IMG/VR virus record: IMGVR_UViG_3300024327_000016
Span: 1-42,380 of that record
Strand: one strand, 5' to 3'
Source: a virus
DNA length: 42,380 bases
Under the pieces are notes generated by a model that did not search any database, was not told the DNA's origin, and saw only the letters and a program-made list of their open reading frames with translations. Positions 1-33,379 of the stretch are shown here, in pieces (positions within the stretch are counted from its first letter, which is position 1; every line of letters begins with the position of its first letter). The translations under genes and the position numbers were made by a program.

Positions 1-42
1 GCTGATAAGTCTACTACTACACAACAATCTGGAGGTAAGTGA
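1..42 (+). CDS. 3' end of an upstream late gene (partial)
   Basis: Only the last 13 codons are present (ADKSTTTQQSGGK, then TGA). The reading frame is open from base 1. The TGA overlaps the ATG of the next gene (TGATG), and the GGAGG serving that gene lies inside these codons, so the two are translationally coupled. Nothing can be said about function. Confidence 0.6.
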   Translation, partial: ADKSTTTQQSGGK

Positions 43-554
43 TGACTATTTGGAATCAACAGAATAACGGTTATGAATTCCCTAAATCAAACGAGGAATA
101 TGCCGCAATGAATAATAGCGACATTAGGGATCGTTTTAACCAAGTAGGAAATGATCTTGTTGGAACTCTTGATAATGGGTATCGCAGGCCTGTATATTCT
201 AATGAAGATCAGAGAAAGATAGAATATATGGAGTACAGGAGAGACCAACTTCAAAGAAAGATGGCTGAAGAGTCTGCTTTACGAAGAGCAGAAGCTGAAC
301 GATATATGGCGCAAAGAGCAGCTGGACCATTAGGTGCTTCTATAGATGACAATCTAAGAACAGATATTCGTACTCCTTCTAGAGAGGCTGCTGCTAATTA
401 TTCTAGAGCTGCTGCTGATAGTACTTCTACTCCAGCTTATTCTTATTACGCCCAGAGTGATGATAGGTTAGACGGTCATTCTATTGATTCTGTAATGGAT
501 CCTGATTTTAGATGGACAGATGAAGGCAGAAAGCAGGACTGGTATTCTAAATAG
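42..554 (+). CDS. hypothetical late protein, 170 aa
   Basis: I do not recognise a family. The protein is hydrophilic, rich in Asn, Arg, Ala and Tyr, begins MTIWNQQNNGYEF and has no membrane segment. ATG at 42 is preferred to the GTG at 39 because GGAGG sits 8 bases before it. It heads a run of five co-oriented genes with short gaps that leads to the candidate ejection proteins, so a virion role is likely by position. A short AAGPLG string near residue 94 has look-alikes in the next protein (AAGPL, TTGPLG). Confidence 0.75.
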   Translation: MTIWNQQNNGYEFPKSNEEYAAMNNSDIRDRFNQVGNDLVGTLDNGYRRPVYSNEDQRKIEYMEYRRDQLQRKMAEESALRRAEAERYMAQRAAGPLGASIDDNLRTDIRTPSREAAANYSRAAADSTSTPAYSYYAQSDDRLDGHSIDSVMDPDFRWTDEGRKQDWYSK

Positions 555-563
555 GAGATACTA

Positions 564-1376
564 ATGGCTTACGGTCAACAACAAAACGTATGGGGTACTA
601 GAAGTAACGCATACGGCGATGAAGAAGAAGGTCAAGCCTTTGGATCTGGTATGGGAGGAAACTCTATCAAAGCTGTAGGTGGGGGCTTCAAAGAGAAGAA
701 CACAGGTAAGATGATTGCTAAGACTGGTGCTCAAATATTAGGCACTATCTATGGTGGACCTGCAGGTGGTATGGCAGCTGGTATGGCTGTTGATGCTATG
801 GTCCCTGACAAACAATCAGTTAGGTCTGGCACTAGTGGTTTCGGTTCTCAATCCGGCAGTACTGGCCAGAGTGGAACCTCTATGAGACCAGGTGGTAGCT
901 CCAATATGGGCAATGTAGCCACTTTAGCAGCTCAAGGCTGGGATAAGTATCAAGCTGGACAAAAAGCAGCAGGACCATTAGCTGATGAAGCGACACAGAT
1001 GGCTCTTAACGAGAACACAGCTGATCTAGCTAATAACGCTTATTCCCCAGCAGGAGACGCAGCCGCTAACGGAGCTACTGATGTTGCTGCCGATGGTACT
1101 GCTGATGCAGCTACTGATGGCGCAGGTAATGCGGTTATGTGGGCTAAAGCTGCTTACGACGTATCTAATAAACTAAATGAATCTGGTGTTACAGCTTCTG
1201 AAGCCCCAGGTGAATCTAAGTTTAATATGGATGCCTCCACTATTGGTCAAGAAAACAAACCGATAACTTTAGGTAGTACACCACAAACAACTCTTCCAAC
1301 TACAGGACCTTTAGGTAATCCTAATAAACCTCAGTTTGATGAAGAAGAATATATGAGAAAATTTGGAGGAAGATAA
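564..1376 (+). CDS. Gly/Ala-rich putative virion protein, 270 aa
   Basis: A low-complexity protein rich in Gly, Ala, Ser and Asp. A weakly hydrophobic Gly-rich stretch (GTIYGGPAGGMAAGMAVDAM) lies near residues 60-80; such segments are common in small ejected or internal podovirus proteins. The N-terminus MAYGQQQNVWG resembles that of the next gene (MAYNKQANPWG), which suggests a shared interaction peptide or a duplication. The SD is AGGAG 5-9 bases before ATG. The structural role is inferred from composition and position between late genes. Confidence 0.75.
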   Translation: MAYGQQQNVWGTRSNAYGDEEEGQAFGSGMGGNSIKAVGGGFKEKNTGKMIAKTGAQILGTIYGGPAGGMAAGMAVDAMVPDKQSVRSGTSGFGSQSGSTGQSGTSMRPGGSSNMGNVATLAAQGWDKYQAGQKAAGPLADEATQMALNENTADLANNAYSPAGDAAANGATDVAADGTADAATDGAGNAVMWAKAAYDVSNKLNESGVTASEAPGESKFNMDASTIGQENKPITLGSTPQTTLPTTGPLGNPNKPQFDEEEYMRKFGGR

Positions 1377-1377
1377 G

Positions 1378-2376
1378 ATGGCATATAACAAACAAGCAAA
1401 CCCTTGGGGTGGAGCAACATCTGAATTAGGATGGAGAGGATTTGCAGATGGTAGTAAACATGGTAATCCTGCTGCTATTGCTCCTCCTAAAGACGACATA
1501 TATAAGAAGCTGGCAATGAAAGCTCTTACAGATATTGGTGGGGCAGCATGGAACGAATATACAGCCCCTGTTAATACTGGACAGTCAATGTGGGGAGATG
1601 AATTAGCAGGTTTTGATACTGCTATCGATGCTAAAGTTACAGGAAAAGATGGTGCTCTTAGGGATAAGAATGCTGTTGAACTAGAAGCGGCTGAGAGAGC
1701 TAAGGCAGACTTTATACGCTCTCATCCTAATGCTGGTAAAGAAATCTACAATCGTCCTGAATGGACTGAGAATGTTCCTGACTTCTTGATGCCTGGGGGA
1801 AGTAGATACAAAGTCCCTGAGGGATCAATTAATACTAGACAGGCTAATGCTTATAGGAATAATTGGAAAGCGGATCGTAAGTTTGTTCCAACACCAGCTC
1901 CGTTAGCCAAGAAGAAAACTGTTGTTAATCCTAATCCAAATGCAGTTACTGTAGACCCTAATGCGGTTAGCACAGTTAACGCTAAAAGGATCAAAGAAAA
2001 GTCATTGGGATACGGAAATACTCCAGGATTTGTTCAGGTTAATCCTGAACATTCTTCTTTAAGACAAGGTACTTCAAGTGTATTAAACACTGTGCAACTT
2101 GCTGATAGATTAGATGATGTCCAAAACTCACTTCATACTCTGAAGCCAGAATGGTACATGAATGATGCGGAACTACTTACAGAGAACAAGAAAGACGCTG
2201 TCCAAAGCTGGATGACAGGCGGATTGTTCAGCATGTCAGACGCACAGACTTATTTCACTAAGGCCCCTCACGAGTTTGTTGAATTTAAGAAGAATCCTGT
2301 TGAATGGTACTTCACAAAAGGACCTGGCAAGAATGACAAGAAAGATTACAGCGGGCATAGCTGGTTCGGAAATTAA
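1378..2376 (+). CDS. putative virion protein, 332 aa
   Basis: No family recognised. It begins MAYNKQANPWGGATSELGW, like its upstream neighbour, and is otherwise hydrophilic with many aromatic residues near the C-terminus. ATG at 1378 is chosen over an in-frame TTG at 1363 because GGAGGA ends 6 bases before it and the previous stop codon is 1 base upstream. Likely part of the internal or tail-tube protein set, by context only. Confidence 0.75.
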   Translation: MAYNKQANPWGGATSELGWRGFADGSKHGNPAAIAPPKDDIYKKLAMKALTDIGGAAWNEYTAPVNTGQSMWGDELAGFDTAIDAKVTGKDGALRDKNAVELEAAERAKADFIRSHPNAGKEIYNRPEWTENVPDFLMPGGSRYKVPEGSINTRQANAYRNNWKADRKFVPTPAPLAKKKTVVNPNPNAVTVDPNAVSTVNAKRIKEKSLGYGNTPGFVQVNPEHSSLRQGTSSVLNTVQLADRLDDVQNSLHTLKPEWYMNDAELLTENKKDAVQSWMTGGLFSMSDAQTYFTKAPHEFVEFKKNPVEWYFTKGPGKNDKKDYSGHSWFGN

Positions 2377-2385
2377 GGAGATATT

Positions 2386-4596
2386 ATGACACAACAAGAA
2401 TGGGAAGCACTAAATGCTACTATGGGATACTCTCCCGAACAAGACGCTTCAATTAGAAAATCAGTACAACAAGCGACAGCAAATGGAGCTACTGTTCCTC
2501 CGGGTTACCAAAACTTATTGCCGTCGGTGGCAAGCTGGATGCCGGGTGAAGAGCAATATAGTATTTTCAATAGCCCAGAGTATGGTGAAGTTGATGCTTT
2601 TGGTTATGACGCTATTGACTCTGCCTCTACTGGAGTATTAGATAAATATTCTTCAGAGGTAAATGATCCTTCTTCAAACGTCAATAAAGTTGAAGTTAAG
2701 AAGCATAATGCAGATGGTACAGTAACCACTACTACTACTGAAAATAAGACAAATACCCCTTCGTTCAAAGGGACAAAGGACAAAGATAAAGATAAGATGC
2801 GGGTCCCAATGACCAATGCAGGTGGTATGACTGTGATCGCCACATCTCCAGAAGAGGTAGCTATGTACCAGAATAATGGTTATGTAGCTCCTAATACAGA
2901 GATGGCTTATCCTGAAGTTGGCTCTGATGATGCCCAGACAGCCCAAGGGTTCGATGATTGGCGTAATGAGTACAACTCACGACCAGAACTAGAACCCTCT
3001 CAATTCTTTGATAATCCTATGATTGACACAGATGCGATGGGTAATCCTATTCAAGATCAAACCTGGGATGGCAACAATGTAAATAAAGGTGTAGATAGAA
3101 CTAACACACGTCTTAATAATTTAGAAGGTATTGATCCTAATGATGATTACTACGAAGGCTTTATTCCAAGCAATTATCATTTGGAAGGTAACTATTATGG
3201 CGATGAAGCTGCTATGGTCGGTGATTCAGCTCTCTTTGACCAAGCTGAATTTGGGGATACTGAATGGGGAGGACGTAATACTACTCCTAAGACTATGTAT
3301 CATCCAAGCGGCTTTTCGCAAGTGATCAACGAGCCAGAAGCTCCTTTGTTTATTCGTGACGGTTACTTTAATACCCAAGCTGAAGCTACTGAAGATAGAG
3401 ATGCTCAGACAGCATTCGATAAGGCTGAAGCTGGACAAGACTTCTTTAATAATCAATGGGATGCTGAAGAAGCTTCTTTAGCAAATACCCCTTCTTGGTT
3501 AGGGCAATCAGACGGAGCTATCACAGATGCTGAACGTGATGATTTAGTCGCTCAAGATCAATCTATTTACCCTAATCAATCTTTTGATTGGCAAGGTAAA
3601 GGCGAAGGCCCTATGACAGACGCTGAACGTGAAAGCGCTAATAATCATAAAGAGGTTAACAAGAGTGAAGTGGCTAAAGAAGTAGTGACTACATTCCAAG
3701 ATAGAATTAATTCAGGAGCTAACCCAGAGGCTGAAATCAAACGATTTGTTGACTCTTCTGGTCATCTTAAAGAGTGGAGACCTCAGTTGTTTAAAGCAAT
3801 ACTAGGAACTCTTATAGGTGTGGCTAGTGGAGAGTCGTTTGGAGCTTCTGCAACCGCAGGCTTTGGTGTTGTAGGTGAAGATATTGCTAGACAAGAGAAG
3901 GTTGATGCTGAGATAGCTAAGGAAGACCGTAAGTTTGTAAGAGACCTTACTCTTAAGCAAGTTGAAGCAGGAGGCAAGGCTGTTACAGCTCGTAAGGACT
4001 TGCTGAAGTTTACAACTAAACGTCTTGAGACTTTATCCACTAACTATAACAACAACTTCTTTGCTAGTATGGATAAGAAGATGAAGGAAAAGATAAATAA
4101 GAAGATTCCTGACGTTGCTCAAGCTTACAAAACATCGTTCTCTGCGTATGCAAGTAGAGCTGGTATATCAGAAGACGATCTAGTGGCTCCTGTTGGGAAG
4201 AAGGCCAAAGGCTTAAAGAGAATCTTTGACTCTGGAATGAGAGACTGGATGAAATCAATGAGAGCTCAAGCTCAAAGCGATGACGATATCAGTTTATCAT
4301 CTTCTCCAGATGCTTTTATTAGAGCTAGAGCTTATCACACTAAGTTGACTAAAGATAAAGGGGTAAGTGGTGATATTGCTCCAATGCTTTTTGACAAGGA
4401 AGGCAACTTGGATGCTGAAAGACTATTGTCTTTAAGAGCGTCAGTTGATACTATTGTAAAAGGATCTGATAACTATCAGAATGCTGATGAAGTATTTAAG
4501 TCCCTAATTAAGATATGGAGAAAGATTAGTCTGGAAGACAGGAAAGACCTAACATTCCTTGAGTTTGCTAACTCACAGGTAGGACAATTGAAATAA
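2386..4596 (+). CDS. candidate ejection/internal virion protein, 736 aa
   Basis: A large acidic protein. Residues 1-420 are rich in Asn, Asp, Gln, Glu and Pro and look disordered. A short Gly/Ala-rich hydrophobic stretch (about 470-495, LIGVASGESFGASATAGFG) is followed by charged helices (IARQEKVDAEIAKEDRKF onward) likely to form coiled coils. This order, and the position directly before a 1346-aa protein, match the medium and large internal proteins that podoviruses push into the cell with their DNA (T7 gp15/gp16, P22 gp20/gp16). No enzyme motif seen. SD AAGGAG 6-11 bases before ATG. Confidence 0.75.
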   Translation: MTQQEWEALNATMGYSPEQDASIRKSVQQATANGATVPPGYQNLLPSVASWMPGEEQYSIFNSPEYGEVDAFGYDAIDSASTGVLDKYSSEVNDPSSNVNKVEVKKHNADGTVTTTTTENKTNTPSFKGTKDKDKDKMRVPMTNAGGMTVIATSPEEVAMYQNNGYVAPNTEMAYPEVGSDDAQTAQGFDDWRNEYNSRPELEPSQFFDNPMIDTDAMGNPIQDQTWDGNNVNKGVDRTNTRLNNLEGIDPNDDYYEGFIPSNYHLEGNYYGDEAAMVGDSALFDQAEFGDTEWGGRNTTPKTMYHPSGFSQVINEPEAPLFIRDGYFNTQAEATEDRDAQTAFDKAEAGQDFFNNQWDAEEASLANTPSWLGQSDGAITDAERDDLVAQDQSIYPNQSFDWQGKGEGPMTDAERESANNHKEVNKSEVAKEVVTTFQDRINSGANPEAEIKRFVDSSGHLKEWRPQLFKAILGTLIGVASGESFGASATAGFGVVGEDIARQEKVDAEIAKEDRKFVRDLTLKQVEAGGKAVTARKDLLKFTTKRLETLSTNYNNNFFASMDKKMKEKINKKIPDVAQAYKTSFSAYASRAGISEDDLVAPVGKKAKGLKRIFDSGMRDWMKSMRAQAQSDDDISLSSSPDAFIRARAYHTKLTKDKGVSGDIAPMLFDKEGNLDAERLLSLRASVDTIVKGSDNYQNADEVFKSLIKIWRKISLEDRKDLTFLEFANSQVGQLK

Positions 4597-4612
4597 TACA
4601 TAAGGAGCAACC

Positions 4613-7600
4613 ATGCTTACAGATTATCTAGAAGGTGAGAACGATATCCCAACACATGTTAGGAGGTCTATTCAAACCAACAAAGGTGAATACTGGTTTG
4701 TTGATGGAGACACTATTGAGCCAACTAGTAAAGCTGAAGGGGCTCCAGTCCGTTTTAGTGATATGTCGGTTCCAGAAACCCTTCACTTCTTAGAAGATGG
4801 AACTGTTAAGTATGGTGATTGGGATGGAGAAATTATTGCTGATGAGATTGCTGGACTAGCAAACTCTCAAGGTTTTAATATCCTTCCTGATGATTCAGAA
4901 GAAGACATCTACGACAGACTACTGTCTCCATTACAGAATAAAGATGGATTAGGTCTTGGAGATAAGGCTTACTACGAAGGCATTATTCCTTTAGATAAGT
5001 TCTCTTCTGACAAGCAGGTCGCTTTAGCTGAAGCTGGAAGAATGGCTAGGGGTATTAGAGAGATAGATCCTAACGACCCTTGGGCACAAGCTAGAGGCAG
5101 AGTTCAACAACATTGGAGAGACACTTTAGTTGGTGAGAAGGCTGTTGCTTTAAATGAAGCGGCTTATGCTGCAGAAGCAGGATATAGAGGCCCAGAGTCT
5201 ATCTATGTTGACCGTGAGGCAATGTTCTTGCATGCTGATAGAGACTTCATGAACCGTGCTGACAATCCTTTTTCAGCTGCTTTCGAGTCTAGTTGGATTG
5301 GCATTAAGCAAGGTATCCAAGGCGGCCGTTCTATGCTGGGTGATGCTCTTAATAACGAAGAGCTTTACTTATCTGGCAAGATTAATGCAGACATATACGA
5401 GAGTAAACTAAGGGAATTACCAGCGTATATTGACGACATTACTAATATTGAGGATGTATCTACAGCAGGTAACTATATAGCTGGCTTAGCTGGCATGGGG
5501 TTACCTTATATTCTTGGTTTGGTTGCTTCCTATGGCGCAGGCGCTGTTGTTGGTGGTGTGATCGGTGGGCCTCTTGGGGCTGGAATTGGCGTTGCTGCTG
5601 GTACTGCTATGCCTTGGTTGGTGTATGCAGGTGATACATATCATCGTATGGGCGGAGACAAAGATTCCAAGAATGCTGGTGCTGCAATGTCAGCTGGCTT
5701 AGCTATGGCCCTATTGGATCGTTTAGGTCTAAGAGGTATTATGAAGCCATCTTATGTGCTAACTAAAGATGGTATGGATCAAGTGATTGCTCAACACGCT
5801 AAGAAGACAGGTATATCAATTGACGCAGCCACTCTAGATGTTAAGAACAACTTGGGTAAAGCTCAAATGGATCTTCTTGATCAAGTAGAGGGTGTTGTAG
5901 ACATCTTAGTTAAGAAAGGCTTAGTTGCTAAGTCGTTTGGAAAGAACTTTGGTCGTGGTGCTGCTATTGAGGGCACTACTGAGATGGCTCAAGAAACAAC
6001 AGGCTACGTCACTGCACATTATGGTGGTGAGCATGGTGAATTTGATGGTGAAGAATACCGTAGAGTTCTAATCAATGCTGCTGCTGGTGGTGCATTGTTA
6101 GGTGGGTCTATGTCAGGTGTTAGTACAACTATCTCTGACTATGGTCGTCTTAAGCAAATGCAACGAGATTATTCTGCATCAGCAGATAATGTTGAGAAGA
6201 ACTATTGGCATGGTGGAGACGCTTATGACCAGCTTCAAACGCTTATGGATTCTCCAGAGTTTAAAGAAGCGGTTAAGAATGGCGACTCATCTTCTGTTAT
6301 TAAGGATGAATACGACAAGGCAGAATCTGATGACAAGACAGTGAACAAAGGCTGGTGGAAGACTATTAAAGACTTTCCTGGCAAGTTCTTTATGAAAGGA
6401 GGGTCTAAGTATCTTCAGAAAATGGTTGAAGATGAAACACTTCCTCCTGCGGTTAGACAAGCATACGCTATTCTAATGACTATTGAAGCTCCTAGTAACA
6501 AGTCGTTTATGCCTGGTCAGTCTAAGATTAAGATGAAGCAAAGACTTGCTGGAAAGATTAATATTTATCTTGAAACAGTTTGGTCTAACTTTATAGCAGA
6601 GTCTGGATTAAGAGCTGTTGGCAAGGATACTGACGCAGCCCTAAAGACTCTTAAAGAGTTTATGGCAGAGCGGACTAGGGCTAAGGACGCAGTGGTTCCT
6701 CATGGGGCTACCACTGTTAATCCTGTAACAACTCAGCTAGAAAGGGAAGGTAAGCTAGATGTTTATGAGAAGGCTGCTAAAGAGTTAGAAGCAGTCGCCG
6801 AAATGAATGCGTTGCTTTACGAAAAACTTACAGGTAAGGACTTAGATAGGCGCAAAGGTTATGTTGAGTCTGCTGCTGTTTTAGCTCCAGCTGAAGTTAG
6901 AAAGAACAAAGAGTTATTCGTTCAGACTTTAGTTGATGGCTGGACGCATATTGATCCTAAGACAGGCAAGGTTATTACAACTAAACTGTCTCGTGAAGAT
7001 GCTCATAAGTTCTATAAAGCTGTTGTTGAAGGTGGAGAGACCTTCTCAATGGGCAATATGACAGATGCAGAATTCAAACGAATGGGTTTACCTGACACAC
7101 TAAGAAAGACTAGTATGCATTTGAATTCATCAAATGTTATGAGAGATACATTCTTAGAGAAGAACATGTTTAAGGTTCTTAGTCATAACATTGCATCAAT
7201 GGTTGATTACGGTGTAGAAGTTCAGGTTGCTGGTAAGGATGGTAAAGGCGTAGATAGAGTATTGCATTTCATTAAATCTACTCTAGAGAAAGAAGGAATG
7301 GGAGACAGATGGGATCCTATGACTGCCAAGGTAATCATGGATTACAGAGATGCTTCCTTAGGGAGATATCATGAAATGGAGAACAAGAAACTTCTTGAGC
7401 TTCAATCTAACCTGTTGTTCTTTGGCTCTATTACGCAACTTGATACATCATTGTTAGCATCTCTTCCTGAGATTGGATTGTTGGTGTTAAATGCAATACA
7501 TGACAAGGAAGCTAAGCAAGTATTAATGCAGGCAGCTAAACAGCTATTCCAACATTTTAAGAAGTCTACTAAAGACTCTATGAGGTATATGGTTAAAGGC

Positions 7601-8653
7601 TCTGGGATGACTCCTGAGGAGTTGTCAGCTGTTGAAAGGGATTTCTATGCGTTCTATGGTTCACACGCTACAGGCGTATTAGGACATATCGATATCGGCC
7701 AGCAGATTGATCATATGAGTAAGTTTAAAGAATCAGTTCTTCAGGCTTTCTTTACATTCAATCTACTAAAGCCGTTCACTGACGCTACCCGTATTGCCGC
7801 CCTATCTATGGCACAAGATGCAATCATTAGAGACTTGGCTTTAGTGTTCCAACATTATGAGTCTGGTAGGAATATCGGAGCTGATGCTTATGAAAGACTA
7901 AGAGAGCTTGGTATAGATCCTAAGGCTATGGCGAAGGAATACCATACATTTGTTAATAGTCTTCATGCAGAGCTTAAGAAAGAGGGTTTAGATCCAACAC
8001 ATGACCCTGAAAGATACTATGCTGCTTTGCAGAGGATTATTAATCAGGAGTTAGGTCAAGGAAATAAAGACGCTCCATTCTATAGTTTGTTTGATCAGAT
8101 GCAGATTGCTCGTCATTCATATGTTGATAACATCTTAGCTAACCCTAACTCAGCTGACAGACCTATATGGTATTCAGATCCTCATTTCAGAATGATGGGT
8201 CAATACCAAGGTTTCTTATCTACATTCACATCTCACATCCTTCCAAGAGCTTGGAGAAGGTTCAGACATGGCAACCCATCTGCTAGATACCATGCGTATG
8301 CAGCAGCAATGACTATGCTTATGTTTGCTTTCCTTGGACAAATGCTTAAGGACGAATGGAAGTATGAAGATGGACACAACCCTTGGTTAGAAGACTATGG
8401 TTATGCTCAGAGAGGTATTATGTCTTCTGGATTGTTTGGTACATCTGAAAGATTCATTGATATGATTCATCCGATATACGATATCAACGAACCGTTCCTT
8501 GAACAACTAGCAGGAGACTTAGGTCCGTTTACTGGTACACTTAGTTGGGCGCATAAAGTGCTTGACAACGCAATGTCAGGAGATATGTCTGGAGTTGGTT
8601 ATTATGCTAAGAAAGCTACACCATTATTCGGCTCTTCTTACTTATTCAAATAA
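4613..8653 (+). CDS. large ejection-type protein with N-terminal staphylococcal-nuclease-like domain, 1346 aa
   Basis: Residues about 25-130 match the SNase (thermonuclease) pattern: VDGDT at 30-34, VRFSDMSVPE at 46-55 and IYDR at 99-102. Spacing from Asp33 to Arg47 (14) and Arg47 to Glu55 (8) equals Asp21-Arg35-Glu43 in S. aureus nuclease, and Arg102 fits Arg87. The calcium ligand Asp40 is replaced by Ser52. A Gly/Ala-rich hydrophobic region (about 290-355) could insert into a membrane, and a second Gly/Ala stretch lies near 490-505. The rest is a long helical protein of T7-gp16-like size. I infer that it is ejected with the DNA; a lytic transglycosylase domain was not seen. Confidence 0.75.
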   Translation: MLTDYLEGENDIPTHVRRSIQTNKGEYWFVDGDTIEPTSKAEGAPVRFSDMSVPETLHFLEDGTVKYGDWDGEIIADEIAGLANSQGFNILPDDSEEDIYDRLLSPLQNKDGLGLGDKAYYEGIIPLDKFSSDKQVALAEAGRMARGIREIDPNDPWAQARGRVQQHWRDTLVGEKAVALNEAAYAAEAGYRGPESIYVDREAMFLHADRDFMNRADNPFSAAFESSWIGIKQGIQGGRSMLGDALNNEELYLSGKINADIYESKLRELPAYIDDITNIEDVSTAGNYIAGLAGMGLPYILGLVASYGAGAVVGGVIGGPLGAGIGVAAGTAMPWLVYAGDTYHRMGGDKDSKNAGAAMSAGLAMALLDRLGLRGIMKPSYVLTKDGMDQVIAQHAKKTGISIDAATLDVKNNLGKAQMDLLDQVEGVVDILVKKGLVAKSFGKNFGRGAAIEGTTEMAQETTGYVTAHYGGEHGEFDGEEYRRVLINAAAGGALLGGSMSGVSTTISDYGRLKQMQRDYSASADNVEKNYWHGGDAYDQLQTLMDSPEFKEAVKNGDSSSVIKDEYDKAESDDKTVNKGWWKTIKDFPGKFFMKGGSKYLQKMVEDETLPPAVRQAYAILMTIEAPSNKSFMPGQSKIKMKQRLAGKINIYLETVWSNFIAESGLRAVGKDTDAALKTLKEFMAERTRAKDAVVPHGATTVNPVTTQLEREGKLDVYEKAAKELEAVAEMNALLYEKLTGKDLDRRKGYVESAAVLAPAEVRKNKELFVQTLVDGWTHIDPKTGKVITTKLSREDAHKFYKAVVEGGETFSMGNMTDAEFKRMGLPDTLRKTSMHLNSSNVMRDTFLEKNMFKVLSHNIASMVDYGVEVQVAGKDGKGVDRVLHFIKSTLEKEGMGDRWDPMTAKVIMDYRDASLGRYHEMENKKLLELQSNLLFFGSITQLDTSLLASLPEIGLLVLNAIHDKEAKQVLMQAAKQLFQHFKKSTKDSMRYMVKGSGMTPEELSAVERDFYAFYGSHATGVLGHIDIGQQIDHMSKFKESVLQAFFTFNLLKPFTDATRIAALSMAQDAIIRDLALVFQHYESGRNIGADAYERLRELGIDPKAMAKEYHTFVNSLHAELKKEGLDPTHDPERYYAALQRIINQELGQGNKDAPFYSLFDQMQIARHSYVDNILANPNSADRPIWYSDPHFRMMGQYQGFLSTFTSHILPRAWRRFRHGNPSARYHAYAAAMTMLMFAFLGQMLKDEWKYEDGHNPWLEDYGYAQRGIMSSGLFGTSERFIDMIHPIYDINEPFLEQLAGDLGPFTGTLSWAHKVLDNAMSGDMSGVGYYAKKATPLFGSSYLFK

Positions 8654-8665
8654 AGGTAAATACAA

Positions 8666-11600
8666 ATGAGTAAATTAACAAGTGGACTCTTAAGGGGTTC
8701 TAAACAAAGTGTGTTTGATGCACCTGAACAGGTAATCGAGGACATTGATAAAGACATACGCTTCGATGATGATATAGATATAGATACTGATCAAGCTATG
8801 GTTAAGTACGTGGAATCTAAAGAGAATAAAAGTACTGACGAAAGAACAGAGAGCCAGGTCATTTTAGATGATCTTGATATAGCTTTGAATTCTACTGAAT
8901 CAGTAGTTCCTATTATTGCTCCAGAAGGCGATCCTATAATTGATGCTAATCGAGAAAGAATTGAGAAGCAGAGAATGGAGAATGTATCTCAGTTTCCTAC
9001 ACAGGAATCTGAGTACGAAACATTCACACCTGAAGAGGATAAGGTTACTCGCAGAGAGCCTGCTAAGTTTGAAGAGTTTGCAAGGTTAATCGATGAGGGT
9101 AGTGAAGATGCTGCGTTCGCTTTATTAAATGAAGGCGATGATACTGTTAGTCGTCCTGACTTTGATGAGGTTATAACTAGCCACAAGCAGATGACTTCAT
9201 TGCTTGGAGAAGAGGCTGGAAAGCTTAACTTTAACTTTAGTGGAGCGAAGAAAACTGAGTTCTATGAAAGGCTTAACAATGAAGAGAAAGCCCCACTTGG
9301 AGATGTTAGAAGTTTGGCTGAATACGGTAAGCGTTTCTTAGCTTTGCAAGAGGAAGCTGAAAGGAATGACTTAGGTCAGGCTTTTACTGATTCTATGATG
9401 TATTCTTTCATGCACTCTCTTTTAGAGCAACGCTGGAGAAAGGAACAAAGAGAGAATGACATTAAAGATGGTAAGCCAGAGTCTGAGATTGCTGAAAAGG
9501 AAGAATCAGGAACTGTTGCCATGAATGGTCATATAGGCTCATTAGTTGAGTCTGCTTTTAACATTAAGAATGGCGACAAGATGACCCAGGGAGTTACAGG
9601 GGCAATCACTAAAGAGATTGTGTTAAGAGCTAACGACCGTTTAGTAGCGGCAGGAATGCCGTCCTTGTTTGAGCAAAGAACAATTAATAAGGATGGTAAA
9701 AGCTTAAACATTGTTGAGTTAACCGAAGCTGGCCTTGACTTGGCTCAGAAGCAAGAGGCCATGGTTCCTACTTTGATTCCTAAGGCAGTCGTAAAGGTTA
9801 GGTTCGAGCGTAAGATGAATGAAGAGGGCACTAAGGTTAAATGGAACAAGTCTCAGAAGAAGAAGAGAGACAAGTCTTTAGACTATGGCGACTATGCTCA
9901 AGCCCAGAAGTCAATAACTTATCAAGAAAACATTCCTTTTACATCTAATGGAGAGTTGTTTATCCGTATTGAAGAGTCTTTAGCGGATCCAGAGGCTAGA
10001 GAGATCATTGATGCTGATTTCATTGGCCTTGTTGGCTTAGAGATGAAAGACGGTACTATTTCTAGAAGAGATAAGAACGGAACTCCTTGGAGGTTTACAC
10101 CTATCTTAGATGCGAACAATCGTCCAATGCTTAATACAATAACTGATCCTACTAATGAGCGTTATGGCTTTAAATATGAGGTAGAACTTAGCCTTTCAGA
10201 TAGAGCTAGATACAGATTGTATGACAACACAGCAATGTGGATTCAGGATACCCAGGACGCTATCTTTTATTATGACTTCATGATTGGTAATGATAGAATT
10301 TATTTGAAGCAGAACATTGGTAACTGGCATAGTGGCAAGTTTGCTAGAAGTCTGTTGCAGACTGGAAGGCCTTATCAAATCAATCACAAGAGCCCTAGAG
10401 AAGTTGGAATGCATAAAGCATTGATACTTCAAAGGGCTGGTCTTGAGAAGGATGATAACCACAAGTCTTTATATGTTGAAGAGCTTATAACTAAGTTTGA
10501 TACTAATGTGGCTAAGTGGTCTAAGATGTATTTCAATCATCTTAAAGAAGGCAAGTCAGGCATTCCTATTAAGCTTCTTAAAAAAGCTGATGGTGATTGG
10601 GAATACTTAACCGCTGTTGAAGAAGCTCTTAGGTTCGATACTTACTTAAAAAACCCTACTAATAAACCATACGAAACTAGATTCTTTACGGAGCTAGACG
10701 GAACATCTAATGCTCTTGCGTGGTCAGCTGTTCAGGCTGGTAACACATTAGTTTCTAGATTGACTGGCCTCCTTCCTAAGATTGAAGGTGATGCTGAAGA
10801 CACCTACTATTACACAGTAGAGACCTTTGCTAAGGAAATGTTTAAAGCATTATCATCTCAATATAATGGAGATGAGGCTACCAGAGTTAAGTTCAAACAG
10901 TTATGGAAATATCTTGGAGTTAAGAATAGAAGCCTGGCTAAGAAGCCGTTAATGATATTCGTTTATGGTGCAAGTGGCTTTGCGATTAAGCTTGACTTTG
11001 GCGCTACTCTTGAGAAGCTTGTTTCTGAAGATGGTTTTCAAAGGTTAGCTAAGAAAGATCTAGGTTTAACTTCTAAAGAAGGACAAGAGTTTAGAGAGCT
11101 GTCTAAAAGGATAATGGTTAAGGCTATTGAAACTAACTTCCCTGATCTAAGGGCTTATACAAAGGCTATGGCGGCTATTACAGAATATTCTTTGAATCAA
11201 GGCTTAAATCCTACGTTTAAGAATCATGCTGGTCATATTCTTCACTTTGGCAGGCTTGTATCCCATGTTGATAAAGAGAAGTCTTTCAAGGCAAGCTTTA
11301 AGGATGAAGAAGGAAAGGTTGACAGGTTTAATGTTGATGTTTTGACAAGAACTCATGATCCTAGGGCCTTATCAGTATCTGCTAGTGGCAAGGAAGTGTA
11401 CAAAGCTGTTAAATCAGCTGCTGTAATGGTTACCCATAGTAATGATTCTGAAAACATGAATGGAGGCTTTATTGATTCCTTTGAAGACCTTCAGAAACAA
11501 GGTAAGCAATTCTATGGAGCTCAAATCTTTGATGGTCTTATGACTACTACTACTCAAGCAGAGATGTCTGCACGTCATCTTAACAAATGGTTTAAGAAGA

Positions 11601-11857
11601 TCAATGCAGAGATATCAAATCTTGATAGGTTCATTGCTGGTATGAAGAAGCAGGCAAAAGAGAAGGGTATTAAGTTCGACCTTAGCTCTCAGACTATTCT
11701 GCTTTACAATCCTAGAACTGAAAAGGAAGATGTTAAAGTTAATCTTATGAAGTTAGTTGAGAAACTAAATAAAAGATATAAGGATTTACAGATAGAGATG
11801 GCTAAAGAAGCAGCTCGTCAGTTTCCTATTCCTAGATGGAAGAATAAATCGAAGTAA
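8666..11857 (+). CDS. putative virion-associated single-subunit RNA polymerase, 1063 aa
   Basis: I read this as a diverged T7/N4-family RNA polymerase. Motif B is NRSLAKKPLMIFVYG at 754-768: Arg755, Lys759, Tyr767 and Gly768 have the spacing of T7 Arg627, Lys631, Tyr639 and Gly640. Motif A is TELDGTSNAL with Asp678 (T7 Asp537). THSNDSENM at 923-931 matches T7 VHSQDGSHL (His784). Motif C is AQIFDGLMTT with Asp956 (T7 Asp812), with Phe where T7 has His811. GNDRIYLKQN at 541-550 fits the TxxGR-type region. It is the last gene of the late operon, directly after the large ejection protein, as expected for a packaged polymerase such as N4 gp50 but about one third its length. The first 60 residues share peptides with two early proteins of this phage. 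Confidence 0.8.
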   Translation: MSKLTSGLLRGSKQSVFDAPEQVIEDIDKDIRFDDDIDIDTDQAMVKYVESKENKSTDERTESQVILDDLDIALNSTESVVPIIAPEGDPIIDANRERIEKQRMENVSQFPTQESEYETFTPEEDKVTRREPAKFEEFARLIDEGSEDAAFALLNEGDDTVSRPDFDEVITSHKQMTSLLGEEAGKLNFNFSGAKKTEFYERLNNEEKAPLGDVRSLAEYGKRFLALQEEAERNDLGQAFTDSMMYSFMHSLLEQRWRKEQRENDIKDGKPESEIAEKEESGTVAMNGHIGSLVESAFNIKNGDKMTQGVTGAITKEIVLRANDRLVAAGMPSLFEQRTINKDGKSLNIVELTEAGLDLAQKQEAMVPTLIPKAVVKVRFERKMNEEGTKVKWNKSQKKKRDKSLDYGDYAQAQKSITYQENIPFTSNGELFIRIEESLADPEAREIIDADFIGLVGLEMKDGTISRRDKNGTPWRFTPILDANNRPMLNTITDPTNERYGFKYEVELSLSDRARYRLYDNTAMWIQDTQDAIFYYDFMIGNDRIYLKQNIGNWHSGKFARSLLQTGRPYQINHKSPREVGMHKALILQRAGLEKDDNHKSLYVEELITKFDTNVAKWSKMYFNHLKEGKSGIPIKLLKKADGDWEYLTAVEEALRFDTYLKNPTNKPYETRFFTELDGTSNALAWSAVQAGNTLVSRLTGLLPKIEGDAEDTYYYTVETFAKEMFKALSSQYNGDEATRVKFKQLWKYLGVKNRSLAKKPLMIFVYGASGFAIKLDFGATLEKLVSEDGFQRLAKKDLGLTSKEGQEFRELSKRIMVKAIETNFPDLRAYTKAMAAITEYSLNQGLNPTFKNHAGHILHFGRLVSHVDKEKSFKASFKDEEGKVDRFNVDVLTRTHDPRALSVSASGKEVYKAVKSAAVMVTHSNDSENMNGGFIDSFEDLQKQGKQFYGAQIFDGLMTTTTQAEMSARHLNKWFKKINAEISNLDRFIAGMKKQAKEKGIKFDLSSQTILLYNPRTEKEDVKVNLMKLVEKLNKRYKDLQIEMAKEAARQFPIPRWKNKSK
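8752..8828 (+). repeat. copy 1 of a 71-bp near-identical inverted repeat
   Basis: This stretch inside the 5' part of the 1063-aa polymerase-like gene matches the reverse complement of 31280-31350 at 70 of 71 positions, apart from one extra 6-bp TAGATA here. Both copies are read in the same protein frame (RFDDDID, VKYVESKEN), so a coding segment was recently copied between a late and an early gene. Confidence 0.9.
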
Positions 11858-11862
11858 ACAAA

Positions 11863-11910
11863 CAAACCCCACAGGTTTCCGTAATGGATTCCCGTGGGGT
11901 TTTGTTTTTT
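11863..11910. terminator. bidirectional intrinsic terminator between convergent operons
   Basis: AAACCCCAC (11864-11872) pairs with GTGGGGTTT (11894-11902). The arm continues with further A:T pairs, and TCC/GGA inside the loop can extend the stem. A T run follows on the + strand (GTTTTTT) and the flanking A run gives U-rich RNA on the - strand. It lies 6 bp after the stop of the late operon and touches the stop of the last early gene, so it likely ends both transcription units. Confidence 0.9.
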
Positions 11911-18126: not shown

Positions 18127-18170
18127 CTCTATAAGGACACAATAGGAATTTCGTATACTGCGTAAGGGAT
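18127..18170 (-). promoter_or_regulatory. class II phage promoter A
   Basis: On the - strand this reads TATTGTGTCCTTATAGAG, preceded by TTACGCAGTATACGAAATTCC. The 44-bp block differs from 31683-31726 (+ strand) by one base. TTATAGAG resembles the T7 CACTATAGGG initiation region, so the start is predicted at G18129. The RNA would begin with hairpin GAGC-AAUUAA-GCUC. It lies directly after the 809-aa polymerase gene and fires into the ssDNA-binding, helicase and exonuclease genes. Confidence 0.75.
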
Positions 18171-18177
18171 AAACCCT

Positions 18178-20607
18178 TTAACAGAAGAAATACTTTGAGT
18201 CCTTTATTTGTTCTAAATCTAGACTTCCAGACTTAGGTTCTAACACATCGAACTTATCATCCATCCCAATGAACTGTGATTTCATATCTTTAAAGACATC
18301 ACAGTTGTATATTGAAATGAATACAGACTTAGTTATCTCAAGCAATTGATCAACATCGTCCGCATGGACAGAGAAGCTATCGTGGATTGCCCCAAATGAG
18401 GTAATTCCTTCTTCATGTAGTTGATTAATTACTAAAGACATATGTGCCGCATCCATTGAATGAACATAGTTGGGACTAATCCCAGATGTTATTTCATGAA
18501 CAGAAGGCACGTCTGTTATCTCTCGATAGATAATATCGATTCGTTTCTTACAGAAGCTGACAACTGCCCTCTTCTTCTTAGTTGACCATTTCTCAGCAAC
18601 AACTTCAAACCCACTTGGGGTCTCCCATTGTGCTGATTTATAGCCAAGTTCTTTAATCCTATATTTCATTAATGCCTGTAAGTAGTTCTTTACAGCTACT
18701 GGTCCAGAGCATAACGAGTTATAGGTTGAAACTAAATCCTTAGCAAGTTTATTAGCTACTGATCTAGTTATATTGTATTTAGCAGTCATTCCTGCGTCAT
18801 AACAATCTGTGTAAATGATGTTTGATATACACCTAACCCCTGCATCATAAGCTTTGGTCATAGTCCCTCTCTTACTTATTCCTTTACGAATTAACTTCAT
18901 TGGAATCTTAGCAAGGATTTCTCCAAGGTCATTGTCTATGTTTGAGTTTATGATTCCCTTAGCAACCACGATATAGAAATCAATCGGTTTCTCTTGGGGT
19001 ATTAATCCAACCATAGCTCCAGCAATCTCATCCTTACTCATAGCGGCTAAGTGTTGGGTTCCGTTTACTGAGCCGTCAATAGCGATAGGTATTTGAGAAT
19101 AGTAGTCACCATCCTCTGCTAAGTATTGGACAACCTCAAAGCACAATGACAAGAATACCCAAGGCTTCTCAGCGCTCATCCAAGCCTCTTTGTCTTCTAT
19201 TGGATCTAACGCTATACTTAAGAACATATCAAGATTATATTCAGACCAGTTAATCCTGTCTTGCAACGTCATCTTGTCTACAGACATATCAGGAATACCA
19301 TCTTCCTCTAAGTCTTTAATGTAGTCAGACTCTATCCAATTAGCCTCTTTTAATTGGTTTATTGTGTAGGACTGGTTATAACTGTTTGCTATGTGAATAA
19401 GAAGATGTTTGTATCCCTTGTCTGTCATTACTTTCTTTTCTGCAAACATTAGATGCCCCCTTGCAAGGTCTGATGATTGATAAGAGAAATACGGATCACG
19501 AGCATACATCCTTCCCCTGAAATCAAGAAAGCTTGCAAGATAGAACTTATATCCTATCCATCCAGGAGCTTCTTTAGTTCCGTGAATAGTATTAAGGATA
19601 AACTCATCTCTGTTTGATTTAGACTGGGTTCTTAAGCATAATTGCTTAGCCTGCCATTGTCTGTTCTTCTTTTCATAGATTTCAGCGCATTTAGATATTT
19701 GCTTTGTAATCTCCTTTAATCGTTTCTTGTCAGATTTAACCTTTTTAGCTTGTTTTTCCAGCTTAACCATTTGAAGCTCTATAACTTTTACTTGAGATGA
19801 GTTGCCTAAGTGAGGCTCAAACAAGATATCGTTGTGGTACAGATCAACATCTTTGTATTCTTTGTTCTCATGTTCTCTCTTAATATCACGAGCCTCAAAT
19901 TGCACGTCAGAACCATCTTTATCTCTTAGCCTGATGCTACTATCAATTAACAAAGAAGTAAGCGTATTGGATATCTCAGCTACCTTAGGATTGACTTCCC
20001 ATCTAACTTGTTCTATGTTATTCACAGCTTTCAGATAAGGTTTAGACTTATCAACTTTAACAACGCCTTTAACAAGCCTATCTTCAACTCCAAGAACAAC
20101 TCTCTTATTAGAATCCCATTTAGGGTACTTCCTAGCCGAGATGCCAATTCTTTCCTTGACTAAGAATTTAATCCCTTTAAATCTAGATCCTATTTCTATG
20201 TGGTAAGGTTGGAACCTGACTTTGACCTTCTTATCTTTTTCTATTAGCTGCTCATAAGACATATACTCTTCTCTATGTAAGGTTATATAACCATTGTCAA
20301 TCAATGCTTCTATGATTAAAGAACCTAACTGTATTGCTCTGTTTGTTTGAATCTTGTTTATGTCAAGAGTTTTAGCGGTTATTTCTCCTATCTTAACTAG
20401 AGAATTGGTTAATGGAACTTCCCCTTCATGTTTACAGAATGAGTAGGTTAAGAAGTTAAATGCATCGGCTACTATTGAGTAACTTCTAAAGTCATCTCTT
20501 AAGCATTTAGCATCTCTAAAGATTTGTACAGCAACTCTTTTGTTGTTTTTATAATCAGTTACAATTTCCTCAATAGCCCACACTATCTCTTGTATCTTGA
20601 AATCCAT
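18178..20607 (-). CDS. T7-type single-subunit RNA polymerase, 809 aa
   Basis: Full-length relative of T7 RNA polymerase (883 aa). Seen in order: LDFRGRMYARDP (361-372); motif A AIDGSVNGTQHLAAM with Asp511; motif B KGISKRGTMTKAYD with Lys579 and Tyr587 (Asp588 replaces the usual Gly); SPNYVHSMDAAH (711-722); motif C GAIHDSF with Asp743; aromatic C-terminus YFFC. It transcribes phage DNA from its own promoters, most likely class II; one of these sits just downstream of the gene. SD AAGGGG. The gene follows the primase by 9 bp. Confidence 0.95.
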   Translation of the reverse strand: MDFKIQEIVWAIEEIVTDYKNNKRVAVQIFRDAKCLRDDFRSYSIVADAFNFLTYSFCKHEGEVPLTNSLVKIGEITAKTLDINKIQTNRAIQLGSLIIEALIDNGYITLHREEYMSYEQLIEKDKKVKVRFQPYHIEIGSRFKGIKFLVKERIGISARKYPKWDSNKRVVLGVEDRLVKGVVKVDKSKPYLKAVNNIEQVRWEVNPKVAEISNTLTSLLIDSSIRLRDKDGSDVQFEARDIKREHENKEYKDVDLYHNDILFEPHLGNSSQVKVIELQMVKLEKQAKKVKSDKKRLKEITKQISKCAEIYEKKNRQWQAKQLCLRTQSKSNRDEFILNTIHGTKEAPGWIGYKFYLASFLDFRGRMYARDPYFSYQSSDLARGHLMFAEKKVMTDKGYKHLLIHIANSYNQSYTINQLKEANWIESDYIKDLEEDGIPDMSVDKMTLQDRINWSEYNLDMFLSIALDPIEDKEAWMSAEKPWVFLSLCFEVVQYLAEDGDYYSQIPIAIDGSVNGTQHLAAMSKDEIAGAMVGLIPQEKPIDFYIVVAKGIINSNIDNDLGEILAKIPMKLIRKGISKRGTMTKAYDAGVRCISNIIYTDCYDAGMTAKYNITRSVANKLAKDLVSTYNSLCSGPVAVKNYLQALMKYRIKELGYKSAQWETPSGFEVVAEKWSTKKKRAVVSFCKKRIDIIYREITDVPSVHEITSGISPNYVHSMDAAHMSLVINQLHEEGITSFGAIHDSFSVHADDVDQLLEITKSVFISIYNCDVFKDMKSQFIGMDDKFDVLEPKSGSLDLEQIKDSKYFFC

Positions 20608-31210: not shown

Positions 31211-31262
31211 ATTCACATAATGGACACAAATGAGTTCGCTCTTTAACTCATGACGTGTACAT
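31211..31262 (-). promoter_or_regulatory. class I hairpin promoter, copy 2
   Basis: The - strand core is TTGTGTCCATTATGTGAAT. The outer arms ATGTACAC (31255-31262) and GTGTCCAT (31220-31227) pair with one mismatch; an inner perfect stem ATGAGTT/AACTCAT (31030s excluded; exactly 31230-31236 and 31245-31251) fills the gap. It follows the stop of the 109-aa gene and precedes the 61-aa gene. The leader downstream (31056-31210) has no gene. Confidence 0.7.
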
Positions 31263-31271
31263 AGGTTGTCA

Positions 31272-31601
31272 TTAGCCTATATTCTCTTTAGATTCCACGT
31301 ACTTAACCAGAGCTTGATCAGTATCTATATCATCATCGAAGCGTATGTCTTCAATGTTTTCTAGATAATCATGCATCTCTAACCTTTCCTTCTCAATGTC
31401 TCTTTCTGGAATCACACCATCAACCGCTATGTCAAATGCCTCCCACCATAGCTCGGCACTTATGCCCATAGACATAAAGGTTAACTGAAGCCCATCCATA
31501 AACACACTCCACTCCTTGTATTCATTTAAAGTATCAGGCTTAACTTCATGTTGTTGTTCTAGTATCTCATGGATACTTCTTGCAAGTTCTATTGCATTCA
31601 T
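31272..31601 (-). CDS. early protein sharing its C-terminus with the virion polymerase, 109 aa
   Basis: A helical protein (MNAIELARSIHEILEQQHEV) whose last 25 residues (RFDDDID...VKYVESKEN) are nearly identical to residues 31-55 of the 1063-aa polymerase-like protein. ATG at 31601 follows GGAGGTCAT; upstream ORF codons overlap the DnaA box and are unlikely to be translated. It could regulate or mimic the polymerase, or the shared tail may mark both for the same partner. Confidence 0.7.
   Translation of the reverse strand: MNAIELARSIHEILEQQHEVKPDTLNEYKEWSVFMDGLQLTFMSMGISAELWWEAFDIAVDGVIPERDIEKERLEMHDYLENIEDIRFDDDIDTDQALVKYVESKENIG
31280..31350 (-). repeat. copy 2 of the 71-bp near-identical inverted repeat
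   Basis: Matches 8752-8828 in opposite orientation (70 of 71 positions, minus a 6-bp insertion there). It covers the 3' end of this early gene and ends 18 bp from the class I promoter copy 2. Confidence 0.9.
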
Positions 31602-31643
31602 ATGACCTCCTTGGTCGTTATTATTATTGGTGTTATTGGTATA

Positions 31644-31676
31644 GTTATCCACAGGTTTTAAACAGTTGTGGATAAC
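31644..31676. promoter_or_regulatory. inverted pair of perfect DnaA boxes
   Basis: TTATCCACA at 31645-31653 and TGTGGATAA at 31667-31675 each match the strong DnaA box. With one flanking base they form a 10-bp perfect inverted repeat around 13 bases. They sit at the edge of the 820-bp non-coding region and 7 bp from a class II promoter block, so they probably recruit host DnaA to a phage origin. Confidence 0.75.
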
Positions 31677-31682
31677 TCCGCA

Positions 31683-31726
31683 ATCCCTTACGTAGTATAC
31701 GAAATTCCTATTGTGTCCTTATAGAG
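31683..31726 (+). promoter_or_regulatory. class II phage promoter B
   Basis: ATCCCTTACGTAGTATACG followed by AAATTCC and TATTGTGTCCTTATAGAG; 43 of 44 bases equal promoter A. Predicted start G31724, giving RNA hairpin GAGGG-AAUUA-CCCUC. It points toward the late operon, 1.2 kb upstream of the TerS-like gene, and may also prime replication as T7 origin promoters do. Confidence 0.75.
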
Positions 31727-32061: not shown

Positions 32062-32229
32062 CAAATGTGTTCAATGATGCCATCAAATGTGTTCAATGAT
32101 GCCACGTAGATGTAGTACATAGATGCCATCAAATGTGTTCAATGATGCTATCAAATGTGTGGCACATAGATGCCATCAAATGTGTTGCAAATGTGTTCAA
32201 TGATGTCATCAAATGTGTTGCAAATGTGT
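32062..32229. repeat. iteron-like array of eight CAAATGTGT repeats
   Basis: CAAATGTGT starts at 32062, 32084, 32130, 32152, 32177, 32188, 32210 and 32221. Spacings are 22, 46, 22, 25, 11, 22 and 11, close to multiples of the DNA helical turn. The fuller 22-bp unit is ATGATGCCATCAAATGTGTT plus CA, and includes the palindrome TGATG-C-CATCA. Typical of initiator-binding iterons. Confidence 0.75.
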
Positions 32230-32303
32230 TGCACATACACTAATACCCCATAGAAACACTCAAGTACCATGTAAGGACAGTGTAGGAACGACTATCCTGC
32301 TAT

Positions 32304-32328
32304 AAATTCCTATTGTGTCCTTATAGAG
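32304..32328 (+). promoter_or_regulatory. class II phage promoter C
   Basis: AAATTCC followed by TATTGTGTCCTTATAGAG, identical to A and B in this 25-bp core but without the upstream TTACGNAGTATACG. Predicted start G32326; TAGAGG (32324-32329) can pair with CCTCTA (32342-32347). It fires toward the late operon, through the antisense of the 101-aa early gene. Confidence 0.72.
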
Positions 32329-32767: not shown

Positions 32768-32807
32768 ATTCACATAGTGGACACAAGAGCTTGCTCGCCG
32801 TGTACAC
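32768..32807 (-). promoter_or_regulatory. class I hairpin promoter, copy 3 (leads the early operon)
   Basis: The - strand core is TTGTGTCCACTATGTGAAT. Outer arms GTGTACAC (32800-32807) and GTGTCCAC (32777-32784) pair with one mismatch; inner stem GAGC-AA-GCTC. The outermost pair is G:C here and A:T in copies 1 and 2, a compensatory change. It lies about 45 bases before the first early ATG. Confidence 0.72.
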
Positions 32808-32868
32808 AGAAGCCCTAGAGAGTTAAGGGGGTGTCAAAGTATATCGGGGGGTGGTTGTAATATATAAT

Positions 32869-32940
32869 ACCCATAGACGATGTACAGATAAGATTTCAAA
32901 TATGACCCATAGACGATGTACAGATAAGATTTCAAATATG
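32869..32940. repeat. 36-bp perfect tandem duplication upstream of the late operon
   Basis: ACCCATAGACGATGTACAGA to TTCAAATATG (36 bp) occurs twice back to back at 32869-32904 and 32905-32940, ending 19 bases before the TerS-like ATG. TATAAT (32863-32868) lies just before it without a good -35 box. Candidate operator, leader element or packaging-recognition site. Confidence 0.85.
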
Positions 32941-32959: not shown

Positions 32960-33379
32960 ATGCCAAGAAAGAAGGCTACGTTAGAGGCTAAGATTAAAGC
33001 TAGAAAGGATGGTGGAGAAAGACTGAAAGAGGCTGGGAAAGCTTATAGGTTCAAGCCAGGGGTCTCTGGAAATCCTACAGGAAAGGGAAAGAAGGGAAGT
33101 AAAAACAAACATGTAAGCATCCCTTCAATTGAAGAGGCTATGAAGGATATGGTGCTGATAGATGGTAATATCCCAGCATCTGTTAGGCTTATGATGTTAA
33201 TGGAAAGGAATATGGCGCAGAATACGCCCACTGGCGATAAGATGGCTCTGGAATGTATTAAAGAGATTAATAAGTACACTGAAGCAACTAAGGATGCTAA
33301 GGAAGTGAATAAGAACGATGTAGAGGATTTATCGAATAAAGAAATTAAGGAAAGACTGTTTAAGATTGTTAACGACTAA
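32960..33379 (+). CDS. putative small terminase / DUF5681-like DNA-binding protein, 139 aa
   Basis: A basic N-terminus carries RFKPGVSGNPTGKGKKGSKN, the FKPGxSGNPxGRxKGSKN signature of DUF5681-type proteins often found next to TerL. The remainder is helical. TerS binds phage DNA and hands it to TerL. SD AAGGAG 6-11 bases before ATG. First gene of the packaging and head block. Confidence 0.65.
   Translation: MPRKKATLEAKIKARKDGGERLKEAGKAYRFKPGVSGNPTGKGKKGSKNKHVSIPSIEEAMKDMVLIDGNIPASVRLMMLMERNMAQNTPTGDKMALECIKEINKYTEATKDAKEVNKNDVEDLSNKEIKERLFKIVND

Follow-up and report, generated by a model that had tools for sequence, protein, structure and literature searches.

The window analysed here is an IMG/VR virus record of 42,380 bases (IMGVR_UViG_3300024327_000016). 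Its late genes run rightward at 32,960 to the end and at 39–11,857, and its early and middle genes run leftward, occupying 11,909–32,729. Another record of this virus, G002 (50,107 bases), overlaps the window at both ends, which by arithmetic gives a circle of ~57.2 kilobases. This is comparable to the 58,106 base pairs (bp) of the closest isolate, Roseobacter phage CRP-7, which has the same layout and a portal protein with 43% identity. The last rightward late gene, referred to below as gene V, is an open reading frame (ORF) starting with ATG; it follows the gene of ejection protein E and is followed by a terminator-like hairpin and then by convergent genes. A previous interpretation made from the letters of the DNA only (the sequence-only reading) had proposed that this gene, last in the late operon after an ejection protein, encodes a second, compact single-subunit RNA polymerase (RNAP) among the virion genes of a phage that also has a T7-type RNAP. 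The gene order and the hairpin agree with the proposed position, the T7-type enzyme is genuine (Table 1), and the 1063-amino acid (aa) product of gene V can be assigned by sequence comparison, with high confidence, to the single-subunit (T7-superfamily) RNAPs.

According to profile analysis, the gene V protein is similar to PHROG 414, “RNA polymerase” (E-value 5.2e-12). Comparison of the single sequence with a profile of 15 T7-type RNAPs in the hhalign program gave a probability of 97.2 and an E-value of 3.9e-11, and with a relative added (L008, ~63–66% identical) the E-value was 2e-14 over 560 columns. None of the controls, which comprised five shuffled versions of the gene V protein, its reversed sequence, protein E, further cysteine-free virion proteins, and a pair of cysteine-free internal proteins from other phages (one of them annotated as a putative virion RNAP), scored better than 0.12 against the same profile. 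The profile search against the T7 and N4 polymerase families, which the sequence-only reading had suggested as a check, came out in favour of a polymerase. Similarity to the virion RNAPs (vRNAPs) of Schitoviridae was also found (E-value 4e-7 for the pair, 1e-9 for three members), again with clean controls. The relative L008 matched PHROG 414 (6e-11) and, at its catalytic domain, PHROG 2206, “virion RNA polymerase” (1e-8); the gene V family without the window clade still matched T7-type RNAPs (5e-7). Searches with the whole gene V protein in Pfam, in PDB (phmmer), and against 50,697 phages (tblastn) revealed nothing relevant, and profile searches of PDB sequences (profiles A3 and A5) gave no relevant match; in a search with the catalytic part, all of the 30 matches listed were annotated RNAPs, but with E-values of 0.002–10.

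3D modeling with AlphaFold (18 sequences) yielded two poor models, of the whole protein and of the core, with mean pLDDT (predicted local distance difference test) values of 41 and 47, respectively. A Foldseek comparison of these models with 350,542 PDB chains returned only single-subunit RNAPs as the top 14 and top 24 matches, and the RNAP domain of N4 gp50 was among the top matches of the first search. Since the models are poor, this result is considered as support and not as proof.

The catalytic motifs indicated by the sequence-only reading were found in place. Motif B (RxxxKxxxxxxxYG, residues 755–768) has T7 spacing: R755, K759, Y767, and G768 align with R627, K631, Y639, and G640 of T7 RNAP, and M763 occupies the position of T7 M635. 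The Asp residues D678 (motif A, context ELDGTSNA) and D956 (motif C, context QIFDGL) are invariant in 18 homologues, and the segment THSND, resembling T7 HSQD, is present at residues 923–927. Only eight columns are invariant in the 18-member alignment (M1, G567, D678, G701, Y767, G768, G856, and D956), and four of them are the D678, Y767-G768, and D956 that had been pointed out beforehand; clade-wise shuffles of the alignment leave 0–2 invariant columns. In a set of 45 cores composed of T7-type RNAPs, N4-type RNAPs, and the gene V family, the Asp of motif A, the Tyr of motif B, and the Asp of motif C are aligned throughout (one core has Phe at the Tyr position). Motif C departs from that of T7 in having F955 in place of H811, as most N4-type vRNAPs do, and the DxxGR of T7-type RNAPs is reduced to IGNDR. 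In the divergent members L012:9528-12968 and L088:3406-6807, motif C contains Y-D (SIYDAF) or F-D (PVFDNF), indicating that the residue preceding the motif C Asp is variable in the gene V family.

As for delivery with the virion, cysteine is absent from 22/22 members of the gene V family, from 15/15 E proteins, and from 11/11 Schitoviridae vRNAPs, whereas T7-type RNAPs (~820 aa), including those of the same phages, contain 9–14 cysteines. The chance of finding none in 1063 residues is ~5e-8 at the T7-type rate and ~0.003 at the rate of portal and terminase proteins. The six ORFs of 39–11857 (3,923 aa) are cysteine-free throughout, as are gp33–gp35 of CRP-7 (3,826 aa). The lack of cysteine in the gene V family fits packaging and ejection of its product; because other ejection-type proteins are also cysteine-free, it favours tail delivery and not polymerase activity. 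In phage StenR_269 (L098:36735-43547), a 2,270-aa “putative virion-associated RNA polymerase”, whose name is based on chain size, content of helices, and absence of cysteine (PMC10747016), does not match T7-type or N4-type RNAP profiles. The same is true of ICP2 gp6, which is also cysteine-free, and absence of cysteine alone is therefore no sign of a polymerase. Together, the N4 gp50 position, the lack of cysteine, the late ejection cassette, and the N4-like motif C indirectly support the prediction of a packaged and ejected mini-vRNAP. Protein E shows similarity to PHROG 2206 in the N4 vRNAP N-terminal region (E-value 1e-8), and in hhalign a 36-column motif only is shared with the N4 vRNAP N-terminal domain (1e-3). 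In N4 vRNAP, the membrane-spanning N-terminal domain is located within the same chain (PMC12633501); E and the gene V protein may possibly represent a “split vRNAP”.

Table 1. Features of the window discussed in the text (positions in the window; residue numbers refer to the gene V protein unless stated otherwise)
Feature	Position	Strand	Basis or remark
Gene V, compact single-subunit RNA polymerase, 1063 aa, 0 Cys; proposed virion RNAP	8666..11857	+	PHROG 414, hhalign, Foldseek PDB, Cys count
R544...K558...R561 (GNDR-IYLKQNIGNWHSG-KFAR), counterpart of N4 TxxGR R424 / K437 / R440	10295..10348	+	hhalign with 11 Schitoviridae vRNAPs, MAFFT with N4
Motif A, E676-L-D678-G, catalytic Asp	10691..10702	+	D invariant in 18 homologues, 45/45 RNAP cores
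Motif B, R755-xxx-K759-xxxxxxx-Y767-G768	10928..10969	+	alignments
THSND, aa 923–927, counterpart of T7 HSQD (H784)	11432..11446	+	alignment of T7-type RNAPs
Motif C, I-F-D956-G	11525..11536	+	F-D as in most N4-type vRNAPs, not H-D
Gene E, ejection protein, 1346 aa, no Cys, Gly-rich membrane-type segment ~aa 285–340 of E	4613..8653	+	
Four further cysteine-free late-cassette ORFs: 171, 270, 337, 736 aa	39..4596	+	Cys count
Terminator-like hairpin CCCCAC...GTGGGG + T run, end of late operon	~11864..11910	+	sequence
T7-type RNA polymerase, 809 aa, 11 Cys, non-virion enzyme	18178..20607	-	PF00940 E=1e-68; phrog_414 E=7e-111
Element 1 copy 1, candidate early promoter, upstream of first early gene	32768..32806	-	
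Element 1 copy 2, contains stem-loop ATGAGTT-AAAGAGCG-AACTCAT	31211..31261	-	
Element 1 copy 3, 3' arm ~45 nucleotides upstream of early start codon	25752..25791	-	
Element 2, T7-promoter-like ATTCCTATTGTGTCCTTATAGAG, just downstream of T7-type RNAP gene	18127..18149	-	exact 23-mer
Element 2, directed to late genes	31704..31726	+	exact 23-mer
Element 2, directed to late genes	32306..32328	+	exact 23-mer

Searches of IMG/VR with the T7-type RNAP and with protein E detected 38 and 7 loci, respectively. A homologue of E is present in all relatives examined, and in CRP-7 as well as in all metagenomic relatives with sufficient flanking sequence, an ORF of 1040–1290 aa lies between it and the convergent gene of the T7-type RNAP. 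With the exception of the closest relative, the encoded proteins are 13–15% identical to the gene V protein. The CRP-7 counterpart is gp33, annotated as “hypothetical protein”, which carries YARGLVVAGLYG and AIHDAL and was assigned by the family profile (E-value 5e-7) and gene position. In a held-out phage (G005), the position predicted beforehand contained a cysteine-free ORF of 1134 aa that matched the family profile with an E-value of 3e-65 and carried KSYAKSVLLTTDYG and PVFDNF. The compact RNAP characterizes the CRP-7-type group as a whole and not a single phage. In the description of CRP-7, the T7-type RNAP (ORF30) is the only RNAP reported (PMC6918029), and a literature search found no publication naming a virion RNAP in CRP-7-type phages.

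Two repeated elements were found in the window, one associated with early genes and the other with middle and late genes. Element 2, ATTCCTATTGTGTCCTTATAGAG, ends with ...TATAG and has three exact copies in the window vs. 0 expected; the same three copies occur in a related phage (contig IMGVR_UViG_3300009703_000029, T7-type RNAP 82% identical). Judging by its sequence, this element looks like a T7-type promoter placed for middle and late genes. Element 1 (TGKACACG-...-TTGTGTCCAYTATGTGAAT) was found exclusively on the early strand, in three copies in the window (0.03 expected) and four in the relative, several of them shortly 5' of an early start codon. All seven copies have complementary arms, in some cases with a single mismatch. 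The loop AAAGRGCG is retained in two corresponding copies, with the stem altered on both sides, and one copy has a 7-bp stem and a 3-nucleotide loop, close to the promoter format of N4 vRNAP (PMC4496689). No excess of sigma-70-like sites was detected in the early region (30 found vs. 37.8 expected). Element 1 is regarded as a candidate promoter of early genes, probably recognized by the virion enzyme. In CRP-7, two early-strand hairpins (L004:331-349 and L004:1133-1149) have the loop TGTAATG and the stems CACACC/GGTGTG and CCTCC/GGAGG, and they are not clearly above chance.

Several other repeats were noted. The 5' part of gene V includes 87 bp (8742–8828) that are an in-frame, 88.5%-identical copy of 31280–31357, the 3' end of the early ORF 31272–31652. 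The 29-aa N-terminal insertion encoded by this plus-strand stretch is absent from the closest relative, and a recent duplication has probably added an acidic N-terminal segment. Near the early/late divergence, repeat arrays are located at 32062–32240 (CAAATGTGTTCAATGATGCCAT-type repeats) and 32864–32935 (a 36-bp tandem pair), possibly representing an origin or regulatory region. In addition, self-matches revealed tandem repeats of ~72 nucleotides at 42002–42380, inside a late ORF truncated at the end of the window.

Taken as a whole, gene V is likely to encode a catalytically competent single-subunit RNAP that is made late, packaged, ejected, and used to transcribe the early genes, in the manner of an N4 vRNAP cut down to its polymerase domain. 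Under this scheme, the polymerase would be synthesized late and packaged, would leave the virion along with the cysteine-free proteins, E included, and would transcribe the early genes from element 1 ahead of any phage protein synthesis, while membrane and ejection functions would reside in protein E, encoded separately upstream. Expression of the early region would next yield the 809-aa T7-type RNAP, which would carry out middle and late transcription from element 2. In N4, transcription passes from vRNAP to the heterodimeric RNAPII and then to host RNAP (PMC12633501). The outline is the same in the window virus, except that the vRNAP would be compact and the second enzyme consists of one chain.

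Among other explanations, the one that survives best, although we consider it rather unlikely, is that gene V encodes an active second RNAP that is made late and stays unpackaged in the cell, serving, for example, late genes or replication priming. Its location in the late operon would agree with this, and overall profile scores slightly favour the T7-type (non-virion) enzymes over the N4-type; however, the complete lack of cysteine in the family is at odds with the composition of intracellular phage RNAPs, and gene V lies within a cysteine-free ejection cassette, in the slot of N4 gp50. It is improbable that the protein is a former polymerase retained in a structural or ejection role with no catalysis. 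The extreme divergence of the family, the H-to-F change in motif C, and the degenerate DxxGR could be read in this way, but the two Asp residues, the Tyr-Gly, and the Lys/Arg eight residues N-terminal to the Tyr are retained by every clade, with changes nearly everywhere else, and F-D is normal in the active N4 vRNAP. A family-A DNA polymerase or primase-like enzyme is very improbable: these proteins share the fold superfamily, and Klenow-type polymerases appear in the Foldseek list, but every better match is an RNAP, the phage has separate replication genes, and M763 at motif B K+4 is as in T7 RNAP, a position at which DNA polymerases have Phe. Chance resemblance of motifs in a protein that is no polymerase, to which the empty Pfam and PDB sequence searches might point, is hardly credible in view of the profile, conservation, and fold evidence with its controls.

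Several observations weigh against the reading of gene V as a virion polymerase of the CRP-7-type group. On its own, CRP-7 gp33 has diverged too far for a good match to any RNAP profile. Template modeling (TM) scores to the Foldseek matches are ~0.2, and fingers, palm, and thumb are not directly visible in the poor models. In the tree of the 45 cores, T7-type and N4-type enzymes form clades (support 89/94 and 98.5/99, respectively), the window pair lies between them, and the rest of the gene V family lies nearer N4; the family is not one clade, and branches are very long. As for the promoters, a clear excess of hairpin stability over shuffles was seen in only 4/7 copies of element 1 (1/3 of those in the window), and a search for promoter-type hairpins or repeats gave nothing convincing in CRP-7 or in other relatives, with no equivalent of element 1 found in CRP-7. 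Moreover, TTGTGTCC is common to elements 1 and 2, meaning that element 1 could represent a variant of the T7-type promoter. Finally, the evidence for packaging of the gene V protein is indirect.

To our knowledge, packaged single-subunit RNAPs come essentially from N4-like phages, and those in our sample are always chains of ~2850–3600 aa, whose passage through the tail is a puzzle. CRP-7-type marine podoviruses could be a second lineage that injects a single-subunit RNAP, in a minimal, stand-alone form with a separate membrane/ejection gene and hairpin-type early promoters leading to a T7-type RNAP; we regard the case for this broader statement as evenly balanced. If it is true, the giant vRNAP of N4 would be a fused version of a modular system, and early transcription independent of host RNAP would be more widespread than thought; the data suggest that CRP-7-type phages may begin infection without host RNAP. 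A stand-alone form of 1040–1290 aa would reveal which parts of vRNAP are needed for delivery and would provide a small natural polymerase for biochemistry. A function is thereby proposed for gp33, and since this widespread marine group has a cultured member, CRP-7 (Roseobacter RCA host), the idea is directly testable.

Virion RNAPs are also delivered with the genome by phages P23-45 (fused to the tail tape) and phiKZ (a jumbo phage), but these are relatives of cellular multisubunit RNAPs with a different fold (PMC10770324, PMC4666361). The counterparts of gene V in CRP-7 and metagenomic phages share its slot beside E and the T7-type RNAP, the catalytic columns, and the lack of cysteine; they differ in motif C, where many carry H-D, and in motif B, where Arg replaces the Lys in some of them. 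With the T7-type (Autographiviridae) RNAPs, the gene V protein shares motifs A, B, and C and HSxD, and for the pair with L008, their profile (E-value 2e-14) is ahead of the N4-type profile (4e-7). An apparent clearly closer relation to the N4-type was an artefact of a narrow T7-type profile, and a broader profile reversed the order. Unlike T7-type RNAPs, gene V is located in a virion cassette, lacks cysteine, has F-D and not H-D as well as IGNDR, and is accompanied by an ordinary, separately encoded T7-type RNAP.

The unusual two-polymerase design suggested by the sequence-only reading has a precedent in N4, which combines vRNAP with RNAPII, a T7-like heterodimer (PMC4496689, PMC12633501). The novelty lies in the compact, stand-alone form of 1,040–1,290 aa, for which no precedent was found, and in its occurrence across the CRP-7-type group. 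The slot of N4 gp50 is likewise that of the last late gene, convergent with early and middle genes, also in other Schitoviridae, and the N4-type vRNAPs too lack cysteine and occur in phages encoding a T7-like RNAP. The Schitoviridae vRNAPs (n = 11) have E-x-D-G in motif A, R...K.PL...YG in motif B, and mostly F-D-G in motif C, compared to ELDG, NRSLAKKPLMIFVYG, and IFDG in gene V; residues R424, K437, E557, D559, R666, K670, and D951 of N4 vRNAP correspond to R544, K558, E676, D678, R755, K759, and D956. The N4 plug and helical domains (PF21624, PF21894, PF21769, and PF21867) were not detected by Pfam in the gene V protein, but this is weak evidence, since pYD6A vRNAP is also sub-threshold for them. 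The gene V protein differs in having a T7-like HSND ahead of motif C and no fused N- or C-terminal domains: the Schitoviridae enzymes, with N-terminal, RNAP, and C-terminal domains, are 2850–3598 aa long in the sample, and the N4 mini-vRNAP comprises 1106 aa within a chain of 3500 aa. The partner enzyme is the two-subunit RNAPII in N4 and a complete one-chain T7-type RNAP in the window virus. The gene V protein would work like N4 vRNAP, and by size and domain make-up it is outside that family.

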